Shown: piece by piece, positions 36,267-53,437 of the stretch
Position numbering within the stretch: position 1 is the first letter of the stretch
How the letters are laid out: every line of letters begins with the position of its first letter
Source of the DNA: a virus
Length of the DNA: 64,000 nucleotides
Direction: 5' to 3' (one strand)
Virus record (IMG/VR): IMGVR_UViG_3300023174_000033
Coordinates: 186,001 to 250,000 of that record
Notes under the pieces: generated by a model
Seen by the model: only the letters and a program-made list of their open reading frames with translations
What the model was told of the DNA's origin: nothing
The model's database searches: none
Made by a program: the position numbers and the translations under genes

Positions 36267-36412
36267 CATCCCCCGTGAAATTAGTCAAACTACTTGGAGC
36301 CTCTGTTACCTAGCTTTATCCCAACGAGACTGGCGTTTAAGGATGTCCAGTCCAATACCCTACCCATTGTTTAAGTCTTGGATTAAAGACTCTGAGTATC
36401 TCTTACTCATTG
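36267..36412 (-). other. Hairpin-rich spacer in the tRNA cluster
   Basis: No gene found. Read on the minus strand it holds successive short hairpins: GAGTA/TACTC, AGTCTT/AAGACT, CAAT/ATTG and GACTGG/CCAGTC (loop ACATCCTTAAACG). These suggest a structured transcript spacer rather than random DNA. Confidence 0.35.
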
Positions 36413-36483
36413 TTATCCGACAAGGATTCGAACCTCAACTAACTCCGTCAAAGGGAGGTGTGCTACCGCTACACTATCGGACA
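36413..36483 (-). tRNA. tRNA-Gln (anticodon TTG)
   Basis: 71 nt including the A discriminator. The acceptor stem is TGTCCGA/TCGGATA, with one G-T pair. The D arm holds GTAGCGGTAGC. The anticodon stem CCTCC/GGAGT has an end mismatch and loop CTTTGAC, giving anticodon TTG. The T arm is TGAGG TTCGAAT CCTTG. No encoded CCA. Confidence 0.85.
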
Positions 36484-36489
36484 ATTTAG

Positions 36490-36558
36490 TGGAGCGTCAT
36501 CTTTCGATTATCCACTTCTGTTACGTTACCCGAAGATAAGAGGCTTTACAGAGCTCCA
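36490..36558 (-). ncRNA. Structured 69-nt RNA with UUCG and GAAA tetraloops
   Basis: On the minus strand TGGAGC pairs with GCTCCA and closes two internal hairpins. One is CTGT...ACAG enclosing TTATC-TTCG-GGTAA (UUCG tetraloop). The other is ATC-GAAA-GAT (GNRA tetraloop). It lies between tRNA-Glu and tRNA-Gln with 4-6 nt spacers, so it would be released by tRNA processing. It is not a tRNA. The fold is drawn by eye. Confidence 0.4.
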
Positions 36559-36562
36559 TTTG

Positions 36563-36634
36563 TAGTCCCACGGGTAGTCGAAACCCGATTGCCAGGATGA
36601 AAACCTGGATTCCTAACCATTAGAAGATGGGACC
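36563..36634 (-). tRNA. tRNA-Glu (anticodon TTC)
   Basis: 72 nt including the A discriminator. The acceptor stem is GGTCCCA/TGGGACT and the D arm holds AATGGTTAGGA. The anticodon stem CCAGG/CCTGG has loop TTTTCAT, giving anticodon TTC. The T arm is CGGGT TTCGACT ACCCG. No encoded CCA. Confidence 0.9.
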
Positions 36635-46324: not shown

Positions 46325-46984
46325 ATGAAATATCTCAAGCTTTTTGAAAATTTTGGCACCAATGACACCCTTTATATCTTTGATTTTGATGATACATTGG
46401 TGGATACACCTAGTTTTGAAGAGTTGGCTATACAATATTTGACTGAAAGTCAGAACATTGGAGATTTGATAAAAAGATCTTTACAATTTGTTAATAAAGA
46501 ACAGAAAGACTTGAAGATTGAAAATGGTAGGATATACATTGAAGATCCAAATCAAACTATTGATCCAAAGGGTAATTGGGTTAGAAAGGGGTTGAGAGTT
46601 TATATGGTCACTCCAAACGTTTATCACTTTTTAGATATTTCACTACCGACAAAAGTAAAAGAACTTTCTGAACTATATAAACAAGTCCAAAATAAGTCAA
46701 TTGTAACAGGCAGAATGGTTGACTTGAAAGAAAAAGTAATAGAATCATTGGAAAAATTTGGATTAGAATTACCTAATCATGGTTTGTTTTGTTATCCATC
46801 AAAAGATGATAGAACAGATAGAGTTGCTGAATGGAAAGCTAAAACTATAGTTCAACTTCTAAAAGATACTGGGTTTAAAAAAGCTAAGTTCTATGATGAT
46901 AAACCAAAATGGGTTAAGAAAGTAGTAACAGCAGTAAGAACAGAATTACCAGAGGTTGAATTTGAAGGTATAAGAGTTCATTAA
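46325..46984 (+). CDS. HAD-superfamily phosphatase with targeting-like N-terminus
   Basis: 219 residues. It starts MKYLKLFE|N, a short targeting-like peptide with an LFE site. TLYIFDFDDTLVDTPSFEEL carries the catalytic DxDxT nucleophile motif (DFDDT). SIVTGRMVDLKEKV supplies motif II (Thr), and KFYDDKPKWVKKV the motif III/IV acidic pair. It belongs to the HAD hydrolases, of the group often annotated in phages as 5'-nucleotidase or RNA-repair-like phosphatase. Substrate unknown. The stop overlaps the convergent polymerase gene by TTAA. Confidence 0.75.
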   Translation: MKYLKLFENFGTNDTLYIFDFDDTLVDTPSFEELAIQYLTESQNIGDLIKRSLQFVNKEQKDLKIENGRIYIEDPNQTIDPKGNWVRKGLRVYMVTPNVYHFLDISLPTKVKELSELYKQVQNKSIVTGRMVDLKEKVIESLEKFGLELPNHGLFCYPSKDDRTDRVAEWKAKTIVQLLKDTGFKKAKFYDDKPKWVKKVVTAVRTELPEVEFEGIRVH

Positions 46985-48474
46985 AGCTCTGCTTCCAAAG
47001 CTTTAATTTCATCCATGACTTTTTTCAATTCCTCTTTTTTCTGCATCATTATCTTTTTATTCTTTTTCCTATCTGAATAAACATCCTTTAACATTTTAAT
47101 AGTTGGTGAATTTCTTTTTCTGAAAACAACACCATTAACACAAACCACATGGTCATCTTTATCAATCTTAGCACCATTATCACAAAATTCAGGATTTTTT
47201 GGATCTCGTACTCCAATAAAATTCTCAGGAGCTATAAACCATTGAATTTGACTTGTTGGGTAAAGCGAAGCGAAGTCATACGTTACGCACCACTGGTTCA
47301 TACCAACAATTGGATCTTTTACCCAACCACCAGCAATACCAACATTTTCCTCAGTATTTTTCTCACCTTTAAAAAGTACTATATTTTCTTGTTCCCTAAA
47401 TCTATTTCTCAATACACCCTCGGTAATTGCCAGCGATGCAAGCGCATTATTCATTTGGGACACAACATCAACAATTTTTATTTGAGCGAGTGATGAAATC
47501 GCATAGATGATTGAGATATAATTTTTAGATTCGTGTATCTTTTGAACAAGAACTGAGTCAACCGCGTTATAGTACATAAATGTTTCAAAATCATCTTCAT
47601 ATAACTTTTGAAGTGAGCCGGCATATTTAATCTTTTCAACCCCCACCAACTTACTTGAAACAAAGTCAAGTGAAGAAGATTCTTTTACTTTAATAGTAGT
47701 ATCACACACTTCATAAAGTTGCATATAATCAAAAATCATTCTATGTGCTGGCATTTCATAATCGGTCATCCATACTTTATTCATTCTTTTTGTTAAGGAT
47801 GAAACAGCGGGGTCAATTTTATATTCCTTACCATTTACTACTTTTTTTAATTTCTTTGCCCTATTAACAAGATACAACCAGTCATAGTTTACAAAGTTCC
47901 ACCCTGTAATCATTGGCATTTTTGGGATCATTTTGTAAAAGAAATTATACATCATGTCAAATTCATCATCATATTTGATATATTTGAACTTGTAATCAGC
48001 ATTGAATTTCTTAAAATACTTATTTGTATTATCTTTTATTCTTTGCTGCATATCTTCGGGCATCTCCCTTAATCCAAGTAGTATGATTTTATCTTCATAA
48101 ACAATTGAAATTGATAAAACTTGAGTTGGGGCCGTTTCGGCATCTGGAAACCCATCAACAATCTCAGTTTCAATATCCACAAAATATATTTTAGGAGTAT
48201 TGTATTCAAATATTTCATTTTTTTCATCATCGGGTAGAGAATCCAAAAACTCATAAATTGAATATCTATCCGGATGGCTTACAGGTTCTAACTTAACTGA
48301 TTTACCATCCCACGATTTAAAGACTTTATGCCTATCGGAATCACTATCATCGCATATTACATACTTCATTGGATTATCCCAATTGTAATATTTCAATTTT
48401 ATATCTCCGGATTTGTCAACGTAACTTACGATTAGTTTTTTACTACTTGAAAGGTATTGGGTATCTACTAACAT
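46981..48474 (-). CDS. Family B DNA polymerase, N-terminal half (split gp43-like)
   Basis: 497 residues versus about 900 for T4 gp43. The N-terminal domain is followed by the 3'-5' exonuclease motifs: Exo I KIYFVDIETEIVDGFPD (~residue 105), Exo II ITGWNFVNYDWLYLVNRA (~190) and Exo III TFMYYNAVDSVLVQKIH (~300). Then comes palm motif A VTYDFASLYPTS (~405). The protein stops after a helical KNKKIMMQKKEELKKVM segment that corresponds to the fingers. Motif B (KxxxNxxYG) and motif C (DTD) are absent. The rest must be encoded elsewhere, and the downstream DNA is an unrelated HAD gene on the other strand. No intein sequence is seen at the C-terminus. Confidence 0.9.
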   Translation of the reverse strand: MLVDTQYLSSSKKLIVSYVDKSGDIKLKYYNWDNPMKYVICDDSDSDRHKVFKSWDGKSVKLEPVSHPDRYSIYEFLDSLPDDEKNEIFEYNTPKIYFVDIETEIVDGFPDAETAPTQVLSISIVYEDKIILLGLREMPEDMQQRIKDNTNKYFKKFNADYKFKYIKYDDEFDMMYNFFYKMIPKMPMITGWNFVNYDWLYLVNRAKKLKKVVNGKEYKIDPAVSSLTKRMNKVWMTDYEMPAHRMIFDYMQLYEVCDTTIKVKESSSLDFVSSKLVGVEKIKYAGSLQKLYEDDFETFMYYNAVDSVLVQKIHESKNYISIIYAISSLAQIKIVDVVSQMNNALASLAITEGVLRNRFREQENIVLFKGEKNTEENVGIAGGWVKDPIVGMNQWCVTYDFASLYPTSQIQWFIAPENFIGVRDPKNPEFCDNGAKIDKDDHVVCVNGVVFRKRNSPTIKMLKDVYSDRKKNKKIMMQKKEELKKVMDEIKALEAEL

Positions 48475-50594: not shown

Positions 50595-51359
50595 ATGAGA
50601 AACGATAGTAGTCAAAATTATAAAACACCTTATAGTAATATTTCTAATTTTAGAGAGTTCACAGATAATGTCCGTAAAGAAAAGGATGAATTGAAAAAAT
50701 TAGATAGAAAATTGAAGAAGCAAGATAGGGAAATTACAAACCCGCATCCGGATGGTATGAATTTTAATACTATAACTCATAAAATGGATAAAAATATCAC
50801 AAAGAAAGATTTAGAAGATAGAATCAAAGCTTTGGAAGATGATGGTGTTGAAGATACTGACCACAAATATAAAATTTCAGAGTCCAAAAGAAGGGTGAGA
50901 ACCTTTGAACATATGGATATGGAACACCATCACGAAGAAACACCATCCCATATGGATCACTCTGGTGAGACTACTTCATATATGTTCTTCACAAATATAA
51001 AAACAATACATCGTTTAGTTAGCGAAATGTTACAATTTGACAAACAATCAGTTAATACCCTATTGAACGATGGTCACAATTGGGCCGAAGATCATTTATC
51101 CGTAGCAAAAGAAAGTGTTAGTCACGTTTTCAATTTCCTTACAAACAAAACAATTAAGGAAAACCACCAAGGATTTAATTATATGTTCTTTGAAAATATT
51201 GAATCAATTCATAAAATGTGTGAGAAAATTTTACAAATGGGTGAATCTGAAATTGATATGATTCTACAAGATGGTCACGATTGGGCAGAGGATCATATAT
51301 CCGCCGCTAAAGAAAATGTGGAACAAGTCCACGATTTCCTAGAAAATGAAATGATGTAA
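50595..51359 (+). CDS. His-rich protein with a duplicated helical module
   Basis: 254 residues. The N-terminal ~100 residues are charged and coiled-coil-like (RKEKDELKKLDRKLKKQD). A His/Met-rich linker follows (MDMEHHHEETPSHMDHSGE, ~110-128). Two copies of a ~57-residue helical module come next (SYMFFTNIKTIHRLVSEML...DGHNWAEDHLSVAKESV at ~130-186 and NYMFFENIESIHKMCEKIL...DGHDWAEDHISAAKENV at ~195-251). The GHxWAEDH signature is identical in both. The His/Asp content hints at metal binding. The stop overlaps the next gene's ATG. Confidence 0.6.
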   Translation: MRNDSSQNYKTPYSNISNFREFTDNVRKEKDELKKLDRKLKKQDREITNPHPDGMNFNTITHKMDKNITKKDLEDRIKALEDDGVEDTDHKYKISESKRRVRTFEHMDMEHHHEETPSHMDHSGETTSYMFFTNIKTIHRLVSEMLQFDKQSVNTLLNDGHNWAEDHLSVAKESVSHVFNFLTNKTIKENHQGFNYMFFENIESIHKMCEKILQMGESEIDMILQDGHDWAEDHISAAKENVEQVHDFLENEMM

Positions 51360-52867
51360 TGAAACTTAGAAGATACATTGATTTTTTATTACCTATTAAC
51401 GAATCTGAATTAGTTTATTCAGATAGATTCAGAAAACTATTAAGTAAAATAGATTCACCAGTCGCTCAAGGTCTAATAGATTTGGAGAAAAAAGACCATG
51501 AATTTCCTAATAACTATATTGATATCGGAGATAATAAGAATCAAATTACTTTTATCACAGACAGAAAGGCAAAAGAATTGATTTCAAGTACAGAATCTAA
51601 AAAAGTCACACATATGGGTTCTGGTCATTTAACACACTCAGAATCCAATAATAATATTTTTGATGCTCTGGGATATACACCAGAAGGTCCACAAACATAT
51701 CATCCGCAACCAAATGAGGAAGGTGTTATAGAATCAGAATATACATCCCCAACATCAGGTAATGTATACTGTAAAGTTGTGTTCCCTGGTGGTATTTCTA
51801 TTATCAATAAAAGTAGATTGAGAACTGTTGATTTGTCAAAATTACCATTTACTAAAAATAGACAACCAGGTAGGGTTGGAGCTTCAATTCAAACTTTATT
51901 AAGAACTGCGAATGTTAGTTTTTCAAATGCTGAAATTGAACAGTTTGTGAATAAATATAAATCTGAATTTGATAAATTCAATGATGCTTTCAGAAACTTT
52001 GAATTAGTTTCTGGAAATGCAATTCACCATTGGTATCAATATGAAAATTATCTACATGGTAGATCAAAAGGACAATTAAGTAACTCATGTATGTGTTCAG
52101 CATCGGAAAGATGGTTACAAATCTATACACAAAATCCTGATGTCTGTCAATTACTTATCTTAAAAGATGATGACCAACAAGATAAAATAAAAGGGAGAGC
52201 TCTTGTTTGGAAATTATCATTACCTAAAGACATCACTTATGTTGATAGAATTTACACACATGATGATTCTGATTTGGAACTTTTCAAACAATATATTGCA
52301 CAACAAGGATGGTATTTGAAAAAGAGATATACAAGTTCTACTAATGATACCACGATGATCGCGCCAGATGGTTCGGAATCAAGACCAGCAATGTTGGAAG
52401 TCAGATTAAAGGATAAAGAATATGGTAGTTATCCATATTTGGATACTTTAAAATTCTATTCACCTACAAATGGTATATTATCTTCAGAGGGTGGTGAATA
52501 CCAATTAGAAGACACTGGTGGTGGATATTCTAACCAAGAATGTGACTACTGTGGTGGAGATGGTTATGTAGAGTGTGGTGATTGTTATGGTAGAGGTAGA
52601 TTGAGATGTGATGAGTGTAGCAATGGAAAGATTGAATGTCCAGAATGTGAGGGTGCTGGTGAACTTGAATGTAGTACCTGTGATGGTAAAGGTGTAGATG
52701 ATGAAGGAAACCCCTGTGAAGATTGCAATGGCGATGGTACAAAAAAGTGTGAAGACTGTTTCGGTAATGGTGAAAGAGATTGCCCAGATTGCGATGGTGA
52801 AGGTTATGTAGAATGTCCCAACTGTGATGGTAACGGACAGAATTCTTGCCACGAATGTAATTACTAA
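51359..52867 (+). CDS. Protein with expanded DnaJ-type zinc ribbons and targeting-like N-terminus
   Basis: 502 residues. It starts MKLRRYIDFLLPINE|S, with the same INE site proposed for the capsid protein. A middle domain (~215-330) contains HHWYQYENYLHGRSKGQLSN, then CMCSASERWLQIY and a beta segment, loosely similar to the middle domain of the ankyrin protein at 25329. From residue ~395 to the end there are about ten CxxC(x)G(x)G motifs (CDYCGGDG, CGDCYGRG, CPECEGAG, CEDCNGDG and others), where DnaJ has four. This should bind several zinc ions in an extended hairpin array. A chaperone-like or RNA/protein-binding function is possible. Confidence 0.7.
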   Translation: MKLRRYIDFLLPINESELVYSDRFRKLLSKIDSPVAQGLIDLEKKDHEFPNNYIDIGDNKNQITFITDRKAKELISSTESKKVTHMGSGHLTHSESNNNIFDALGYTPEGPQTYHPQPNEEGVIESEYTSPTSGNVYCKVVFPGGISIINKSRLRTVDLSKLPFTKNRQPGRVGASIQTLLRTANVSFSNAEIEQFVNKYKSEFDKFNDAFRNFELVSGNAIHHWYQYENYLHGRSKGQLSNSCMCSASERWLQIYTQNPDVCQLLILKDDDQQDKIKGRALVWKLSLPKDITYVDRIYTHDDSDLELFKQYIAQQGWYLKKRYTSSTNDTTMIAPDGSESRPAMLEVRLKDKEYGSYPYLDTLKFYSPTNGILSSEGGEYQLEDTGGGYSNQECDYCGGDGYVECGDCYGRGRLRCDECSNGKIECPECEGAGELECSTCDGKGVDDEGNPCEDCNGDGTKKCEDCFGNGERDCPDCDGEGYVECPNCDGNGQNSCHECNY

Positions 52868-52870
52868 ACT

Positions 52871-53053
52871 ATGGAAAATATACTCTCATACGAAGATTTC
52901 ATTACAGAAGGATATAACAAACCAAGAAAGGGTATGAAATCTAGATGGTCTGTTAAATACAAGAAGAAGATAAATTGTAGTAGTCCCAATCTTGGATTTT
53001 CACAAAAGCAATATTGTAAAAGAAAGAGAAAGGGTGGAAAATATAAGTCATAA
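52871..53053 (+). CDS. Small basic protein with capsid-targeting-like N-terminus
   Basis: 60 residues. MENILSYEDFITE|G fits the targeting pattern; the rest is strongly basic (NKPRKGMKSRWSVKYKKK, then GFSQKQYCKRKRKGGKYKS). The motif KYKKKINCSSPNLGFSQKQYC resembles a small family found in various T4-like phages and large viruses. After cleavage it would be a ~47-residue DNA-binding-type peptide, like T4 internal proteins. It is 3 nt downstream of the zinc-ribbon gene and followed by a strong terminator. Confidence 0.7.
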   Translation: MENILSYEDFITEGYNKPRKGMKSRWSVKYKKKINCSSPNLGFSQKQYCKRKRKGGKYKS

Positions 53054-53054
53054 A

Positions 53055-53080
53055 AAAACCCACCAAATTTGGTGGGTTTT
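53055..53080. terminator. Bidirectional terminator between the small basic gene and tmRNA
   Basis: A 26-bp perfect palindrome (AAAACCCACCAAA and its complement), placed directly after the + strand stop at 53053 and 6 nt beyond the tmRNA 3' end on the minus strand. Confidence 0.85.
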
Positions 53081-53086
53081 TATTTG

Positions 53087-53437
53087 TGGAGATGCGGGGC
53101 TCCGACTCCCCGGTCTTCCTCGACTAGACCTAAAATATCCTTCACAGACTTAGTCAAGTTTTTCTAAACTGACAAAATATTCAATTTGATTTTACGATTC
53201 TAACTGACAGATAACATCGTGAGTTTTACAGACTCAATACTGTTGAAAACAATTAAGCTACAGAAGCTACCTCGTTTGTCTTGAGGATGTTGTTTTGTAG
53301 GGCAAATACTAATTCTTCTTTGCTAGCTACTTCGTTTGTGTTGCCATTTACAGCTTTGATACCTTATTTAATTGGTCGATATCACCCAATGCCTGCTATT
53401 TTAACCCTACGACGCGAATCAATTCCATTTCATCCCC
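53087..53437 (-). ncRNA. ssrA: Phage-encoded tmRNA
   Basis: 351 nt. The 5' end GGGGATG pairs with CATCTCC at the 3' end. This 7-bp acceptor stem has a G3-U70 wobble and an A discriminator, the alanyl-tRNA synthetase identity. The 5' region (AAATGGAATTGATTCG) and the 3' region (TTGACTAAGTCTGTGAAG) match conserved tmRNA segments. A tag frame starts with GGC about 93 nt from the 5' end, near the usual resume position, and runs 30 codons to TAA. The T loop (AGTCGGAG between CGGGG and CCCCG) is 8 nt and lacks the usual TTCGA. The 3' end is followed by CA, not CCA. It would rescue stalled ribosomes with SmpB, which is not encoded here. Confidence 0.88.
53253..53345 (-). other. tmRNA tag reading frame
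   Basis: 30 sense codons from GGC (Gly) to TAA. The tag starts GNTNEVASKEE, has a middle part LVFALQNN and ends LKTNEVASVA. TNEVAS occurs twice, at the start and end. It is longer than usual bacterial tags and ends in SVA rather than LAA. The resume codon is assigned by position and frame; it is not proven. Confidence 0.7.

Follow-up and report, generated by a model that had tools for sequence, protein, structure and literature searches.

That huge phages can carry transfer-messenger RNA (tmRNA) together with its partner protein SmpB is already known (Al-Shayeb et al. 2020, PMC7162821); the main text of that article, in which tmRNAs were assigned by the program ARAGORN, contains no mention of ClpP, and no description of a tag family or hairpins was found there. 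Earlier phage tmRNAs are those of the mycobacteriophages Bxz1, Wildcat and others, of Bacillus phage G and of DS6A (PMC4131195). An update of the tmRNA database, for which RefSeq viruses were also searched, names 10 residues as the most frequent length of the tag (PMC11915505). Here we describe a one-piece tmRNA gene (ssrA) on the minus strand of a viral DNA stretch of 64,000 nucleotides (positions 186,001 to 250,000 of IMG/VR record IMGVR_UViG_3300023174_000033; the whole stretch is called the window), which is part of a 464,605-base virus record (G000). With a probability of roughly 0.7, the gene belongs to a huge T4-like virus and yields a working tmRNA that acts with phage SmpB, a tag lengthened by RNA hairpins and phage ClpC and ClpP in a self-contained viral pathway. 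Exact and degenerate searches built from its tag assembled a family of 74 records with 55 distinct tmRNAs (the window and LR745206 counted in), located in viral contigs and in huge phages of 634 and 642 kb.

The RNA shares with canonical one-piece tmRNA (E. coli SsrA) the G3-U70 acceptor stem, helix H2, pseudoknot PK1, the U-5/A-4 resume signal, a tag frame with stop codon and the CTAAG...TGT 3′ segment. It differs from it by the tag length of the family (27–30 codons versus the usual 10), by two conserved hairpins in the frame, by a mostly non-canonical T loop, by an end other than LAA and, in the window, by a weak helix H5; moreover, the family is poorly detected by ARAGORN and only partly by Rfam. 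The DS6A tmRNA, unlike that of the window, is devoid of a tag frame. Prevotella Lak phages (MK250016, L146; MK250024, L148; MK250029, L147) also encode tmRNA and SmpB, but their tags (DDEIDFRMAA or DDEIEFRMAA) are short and conventional, unlike those of the family. The ssrA tags of Mollicutes (Mesoplasma florum), which are read by Lon, are likewise long and differ from LAA at the end (PMC9382460). In contrast to these, no tag of the family carries the C-terminal NYAFA of the Lon-type tags, and the cognate protease would most likely be ClpC/ClpP. ClpP, ClpA, ClpX and ClpS are known from jumbo phages in a study whose text mentions neither tmRNA nor SmpB (PMC7824862); a ClpC in two halves with apparent split-intein ends sets the present virus apart. 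A search of the open-access literature found neither this family, nor hairpins lying in a tag frame, nor any phage with the full set of tmRNA, SmpB, ClpC and ClpP. As far as that literature goes, the family, its tag with hairpins and the matching genes for Clp proteins appear to be undescribed.

Identification and anatomy of the tmRNA

The following elements were assigned in the window.

53084–53437, minus strand, 5′ end at 53437: one-piece tmRNA gene (ssrA), 354 nt, found by RF00023 and by family model R1 (318.9 bits)
53431–53437, minus strand: 5′ strand of the acceptor stem, GGGGAUG, with G3 of the G3-U70 pair at 53435; read from the sequence
53253–53345, minus strand: tag reading frame of 30 codons plus UAA stop, by translation; resume codon GGC at 53345–53343, UAA at 53255–53253
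53302–53323, minus strand: hairpin HP-A, GCAAA-GAAGAAUUAGUA-UUUGC, codons 8–15; pairing kept and covariation
53270–53286, minus strand: hairpin HP-B, CCUC-AAGACAAAC-GAGG, codons 20–26; pairing kept and folding energy
53220–53243, minus strand: pseudoknot predicted 3′ of the stop codon, ACAG UAU UGAGU CUGU AAA ACUCA; direct reading and search
53095–53112, minus strand: T arm CGGGG-AGUCGGAG-CCCCG with an 8-nt non-canonical T loop, which is the same in relative L003
53088–53094, minus strand: 3′ strand of the acceptor stem, CAUCUCC, with U70 at 53090; read from the sequence

A first, sequence-only reading of this DNA had proposed a real tmRNA, leaving its strand unstated, and had named Infernal and ARAGORN as checks. 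Infernal with Rfam model RF00023 covered the full model at 53437..53084 on the minus strand with 58.0 bits (gathering threshold 47, E=3.8e-20), whereas ARAGORN made no tmRNA call for the gene. The 7-bp acceptor stem with G3-U70, the alanine identity element, is directly readable (GGGGATG/CATCTCC), as that reading had held. It is followed by 3′ ACAA, so that CCA is not encoded and the gene including its 3′-terminal bases ends at 53084. G3-U70 is present in 72 of the 74 family members (the remaining two have mis-picked or cut 5′ ends), and the acceptor pairs covary in relatives, for example GGGGGCG/CGCCUCC in L004.

RNAalifold predicted 48 pairs for 39 distinct members, 36 of them with changes on both sides. 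Covarying stems comprise the acceptor, H2 (strongly), the T stem and the stem of PK1, which is kept. PK2 and PK4 were read by eye, the statistics for PK2 being weak. A close relative (L010) keeps the pseudoknot following the stop codon as ACAG UAA AGACU CUGU AAA AGUCU; because an automated family-wide search 3′ of the stop scored barely higher than shuffled sequences (12.2 versus 11.0), this pseudoknot is predicted from direct reading and close relatives only. H5, which holds the stop codon in its loop, has at least 5 pairs in 37 of 53 members (mean 4.98 versus 3.00 in shuffled sequences) and is weak in the window. The T loop was rightly called non-canonical: the 8-nt AGUCGGAG does not match UUCRANN, a sequence common in tmRNA without strictly defining it. 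Only 3 of 53 distinct relatives have the canonical UUCGAAU, and the commonest loop is GGCAGUA on a 6-bp stem (23 of 53).

Two conserved hairpins inside the tag frame

Translation of the frame yields GNTNEVASKEELVFALQNNILKTNEVASVA, thirty sense codons with TNEVAS at both ends and VASVA as final residues, exactly as proposed from the letters alone. The proposed resume position and frame also held: within the family, A-4 ahead of the resume codon never varies and U-5 is conserved in at least 90%, and these are the equivalents of U85/A86, which set the frame in E. coli (PMC2481249).

HP-A forms between codon 9 plus the wobble base preceding it (codon 8) on one side and codons 14–15 on the other, across a 12-base loop. 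Its pairs were kept in 84.6% of cells compared to 60.2% (sd 2.3) after shuffling, with a covariation of 0.68 versus 0.26, and pairing fell to 29–53% when the partner strand was slid. Pairing of the codon-8 wobble position with position 1 of codon 15 was found in all 45 distinct frames, compared to 65.5% upon peptide-preserving codon resampling. Compensatory changes occur in L055 (ACA...TGC) and L086 (TCA...TCT). HP-B pairs were kept in 85.3% of cells versus 71.3% (sd 1.8) in shuffled sequences, with exchanges between G-C, A-U and C-G and between C-G, A-U and U-A. With an energy of -4.7 versus -1.9 kcal/mol for codon-resampled controls encoding the same peptide, HP-B is about 2.9 kcal/mol more stable; the folding energy of the whole frame gave no signal. 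Furthermore, all 45 distinct frames have the same codons 5, 6, 10 and 13 (GAA, GTA, GAA, GTA), although elsewhere they use GAG and other valine codons. At codon 12 the amino acid varies and the last two bases are constant. A pairing of the HP-A loop with the conserved 3′ UACUAA was dropped as a candidate; it fits some members, is broken in others and is confounded with PK4.

The tag frame is under RNA-level constraint beyond the requirement for the peptide, and the peptide sequence alone therefore tells less. The frame is probably long because the RNA holds two extra conserved hairpins inside it, so that part of the peptide would follow from RNA structure.

A virus-only tmRNA family

A tag frame was seen in every family match that was translated. 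The common tag core is GxTNEVxSxEDLVxALxNN or, with its alternatives written out, G[NK][TV][NT]EV[AG][ST]x-ED[LV]V[AF][AT]L[QRK]NN, and a minority of members have a 27-codon form ending in ...KAIGANTPELV or similar. The huge phages LR745206 (634 kb) and LR756502 (642 kb) have the same kind of tmRNA, with the tags GNVNEVVTREDLVAALQNNMLLVEEPATV and DNVSEVGTREDIVSALQNNMISVGDLAVA, respectively; these 634- and 642-kb records match Al-Shayeb et al. (2020) and carry the family tmRNA together with SmpB. When about 85,000 bacterial and archaeal genomes were scanned with the tag-core pattern, three matches were obtained, all within ordinary proteins, and none was a tmRNA. The phage origin assumed in the sequence-only reading is supported; the virus-only family, the hairpins within the tag frame and the partner genes described below go beyond it.

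ARAGORN, the program used for huge phages before, detected 3 of the 55 distinct family tmRNAs, calling the relatives L004/L006 with the tag GNTNEVASKEELVFALRNNQLKVNEVASVA; therefore, tmRNA counts in viral genomes are too low. RF00023 was weak on relatives as well: L010 reached 46 bits (gathering threshold 47), and L005, L007 and L008 remained unseen at E 0.05. A family covariance model (R1) built from 17 members found one tmRNA, and no more, in each of eight large records. The Lak phages, which have ordinary short tags and were not found by R1 under its stricter filters, were rejected as family members.

A divergent tmRNA with a 33-residue tag, GDYKMNAEDMMSIPTSLTGKVATESFVEDLVLA, is located at 718416–718706 of the 735-kb phage LR756501.1 (L145). 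A group I intron (RF00028, E=7.9e-25) comes directly after it and probably lies within the T loop.

SmpB, ClpP and ClpC genes of the virus

Genes for the protein partners were found elsewhere in the virus record.

G000:C1:7336–7758, plus strand: SmpB (PF01668/TIGR00086), 176.8 bits, and 175.9 bits versus a cut-off of 119.1
357258–357788 of the virus record, minus strand: ClpP (PF00574), 223.8 bits, with the Ser/His/Asp motifs AASMAA, MIHQP and SDRDYW
G000:C1:169817–171091, plus strand: N-half of a ClpC-type unfoldase (L131), ending GVGK-CVTKDTSITLRNKKTGE...; outside the window
G000:C1:120918–121709, minus strand: C-half of the ClpC-type unfoldase (L130), preceded by an intein-like C part ending LLSHN-TQLAK; outside the window

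The SmpB protein has the conserved C-terminal tail GKKLHDKR, aligned to solved SmpB, and SmpB genes were present in all eight large records with a family tmRNA (G000 and seven others). Among the same records, ClpC was found in seven and ClpP in five. The viral ClpP scores below the NCBIfam ClpP equivalog cut-offs. The two ClpC halves lie about 48 kb apart on opposite strands, and their join falls inside the second Walker A motif. They carry apparent split-intein ends with an N-part of about 30 and a C-part of about 130 amino acids, the latter resembling the solved inteins 6dsl and 6qaz; the gene is unbroken in both relatives in which it was read. The protein has two AAA modules, a UVR linker motif and a ClpP-binding loop, GTGIGFTTK, which aligns to KYVGFNVQ of ClpC. 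No Clp_N domain appeared in the Pfam result, and scores were below the NCBIfam cut-offs for ClpA and ClpB. A search with AAA_2 gave a single matching gene in each record and revealed no separate ClpX.

LR756502 (364599–365000, L122) and G025 (81468–81875, L129) have a third ClpP-like gene, a shorter one, about 2–3 kb from smpB and beside a sigma-factor-like gene.

Other features of the window and the virus

Among the genes of the virus are those for a T4-like capsid and head protease, for family B DNA polymerase and for ribonucleotide reductase. Judged by pairwise identity, it is probably related to the 634- and 642-kb huge phages and a candidate for the Mahaphage clade, with 76–78% DNA identity over one stretch and a ClpC 73–76% identical to that of LR745206. 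Further features of the window are listed below.

53052–53081, no strand: palindrome resembling a bidirectional terminator, CCCACC-AAATTT-GGTGGG with A/T runs, immediately 3′ to the tmRNA; direct reading
51359–52867, plus strand: 502-amino-acid protein adjoining the tmRNA, with many CxxCxGxG-like zinc-finger repeats (DnaJ/BSD2-like)
46981–48474, minus strand: family B DNA polymerase, 497 amino acids, stopping after the exonuclease part and the first polymerase motif
36412–36634, minus strand: adjacent tRNA-Gln(ttg) and tRNA-Glu(ttc)

The palindrome was not listed by a terminator scan; a similar element begins behind the tmRNA in L003 and L004. The rest of the DNA polymerase must be encoded elsewhere (split polymerase), and no intein was seen at its break.

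Discussion

Taken by its anatomy, the RNA very probably functions in trans-translation. Host alanyl-tRNA synthetase would charge it with alanine, and the charged RNA would enter ribosomes stalled on broken mRNA together with SmpB, probably the phage's own. Translation would resume at GGC and add the 30-residue tag. Phage ClpC, with its IGF-type loop, and ClpP would then unfold and degrade the tagged proteins, possibly besides host proteases, recognizing the small hydrophobic C-terminus, the conserved core of the tag or both; the chances are about even that they are the main protease for these proteins. The net effect would be ribosome rescue and recycling of amino acids during infection.

The sequence-only reading had offered two ideas on the tag that are not supported. 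One was that TNEVAS was duplicated internally and the frame thereby grew. As a pattern, the six-residue repeat is above chance, since such a repeat arose in 5 of 200,000 permutations of the tag, and 14 of its 18 bases are identical. However, relatives lacking a second TNEVAS have tags of nearly equal length (27–30 codons), in which the C-terminal half lines up in register with the supposed second copy (KTNEVASVA / KVNEVAFA / VVNELEVA / LVEEPATV); intermediates such as KVNEVAFA, TVNEVAA, VVNELEVA and NVGELVEA exist. Duplication is thus quite improbable as the source of the long odd tag, which the hairpins explain better. The other idea was that the SVA end keeps ClpXP of the host away from tagged proteins or directs these to a different host protease. 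The tag is indeed long and does not end in LAA, and Lon reads the long Mollicutes tags (PMC9382460). Yet the C-terminal end is the most variable part of the tag and changes freely among close relatives (SVA, FVA, FA, ATA, AVA, VAA, VEA, EVA, ATV, AVV, SLV, ELV), the NYAFA motif is missing, the virus has ClpC and ClpP genes of its own, and a review still lists the LVA, AAV and SVA variants of the E. coli tag among degradation tags (PMC9382460). We therefore regard evasion of ClpXP as improbable.

Less easily set aside, if still unlikely, is the explanation that the core is kept for its peptide, which would bind an adaptor or unfoldase, with the RNA hairpins as by-products. Core residues E5, V6, E10, V13 and L16 are invariant or nearly so, S/T-x-E-D may resemble a helix N-cap, and adaptor and unfoldase sites are combined in the E. 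coli tag as well (PMC9382460). What speaks against it are the frozen synonymous positions of the core, the change of amino acid where the bases allow it (TTA to GTA/CTA; ATA in LR756502) and the invariable pairing of the codon-8 wobble base with the first base of codon 15; peptide and RNA roles of the core can coexist. Phage tmRNA-like inhibitors exist (PMC4131195, PMC11915505), and the RNA might be a decoy that titrates the SmpB of the host or blocks trans-translation there, comparable to the tmRNA of mycobacteriophage DS6A, which consists of the tRNA domain alone. The family, however, retains the full reading frame, resume signals and stop, and the virus encodes its own SmpB, which makes a decoy very improbable. 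The negative ARAGORN result, the odd T loop and the weak H5 would suit a decaying or chance tmRNA-like sequence, an explanation that we consider next to impossible given the E-value of the RF00023 match, the compensatory changes that 39 distinct sequences show in the acceptor, T, H2 and tag-frame stems, the invariant resume signal and the presence of SmpB in every large record.

Several observations weigh against a working, self-contained viral pathway with a hairpin-lengthened tag. The folding energy of HP-A is no better than that of controls (mean z -0.23), its support being covariation, and both codon resampling and shuffles ignore the relatedness of the sequences. A tree supports coupled changes, the HP-A pairs 132-149 and 133-148 having co-changed on 5 branches each compared to a mean of 1.2 for control pairs; but these two pairs share codons, one unrelated control pair reached 7, and the branches are few. 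The tmRNA-bearing records G013, G017 and G027, which may be fragments, show no ClpP, and G013 no ClpC. In the present virus ClpC is in two halves and requires trans-splicing. Finally, the host phylum is predicted, being taken over from the published prediction of Bacteroidetes hosts for the 634- and 642-kb phages.

Beyond a self-contained pathway, we tentatively consider an orthogonal one in huge phages, in which tmRNA, SmpB, ClpC and ClpP would share a private tag. The messenger part, a structured and conserved RNA element with its two hairpins and frozen loop bases, might then be the site where phage SmpB, a ribosomal protein or some other phage factor recognizes or controls the RNA, and phage and host rescue would be kept apart. 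This is possible, though we would not favor it.

With the RNA, its protein partner and matching Clp unfoldase and protease genes in one virus, the question why large phages carry ribosome-rescue genes becomes testable as a unit, and in a family that is widespread. The family model recovers one tmRNA per large genome tested. The hairpins in the tag frame challenge the view that the messenger part is just a short, plain reading frame, and they offer a reason for long odd tags other than the choice of protease.
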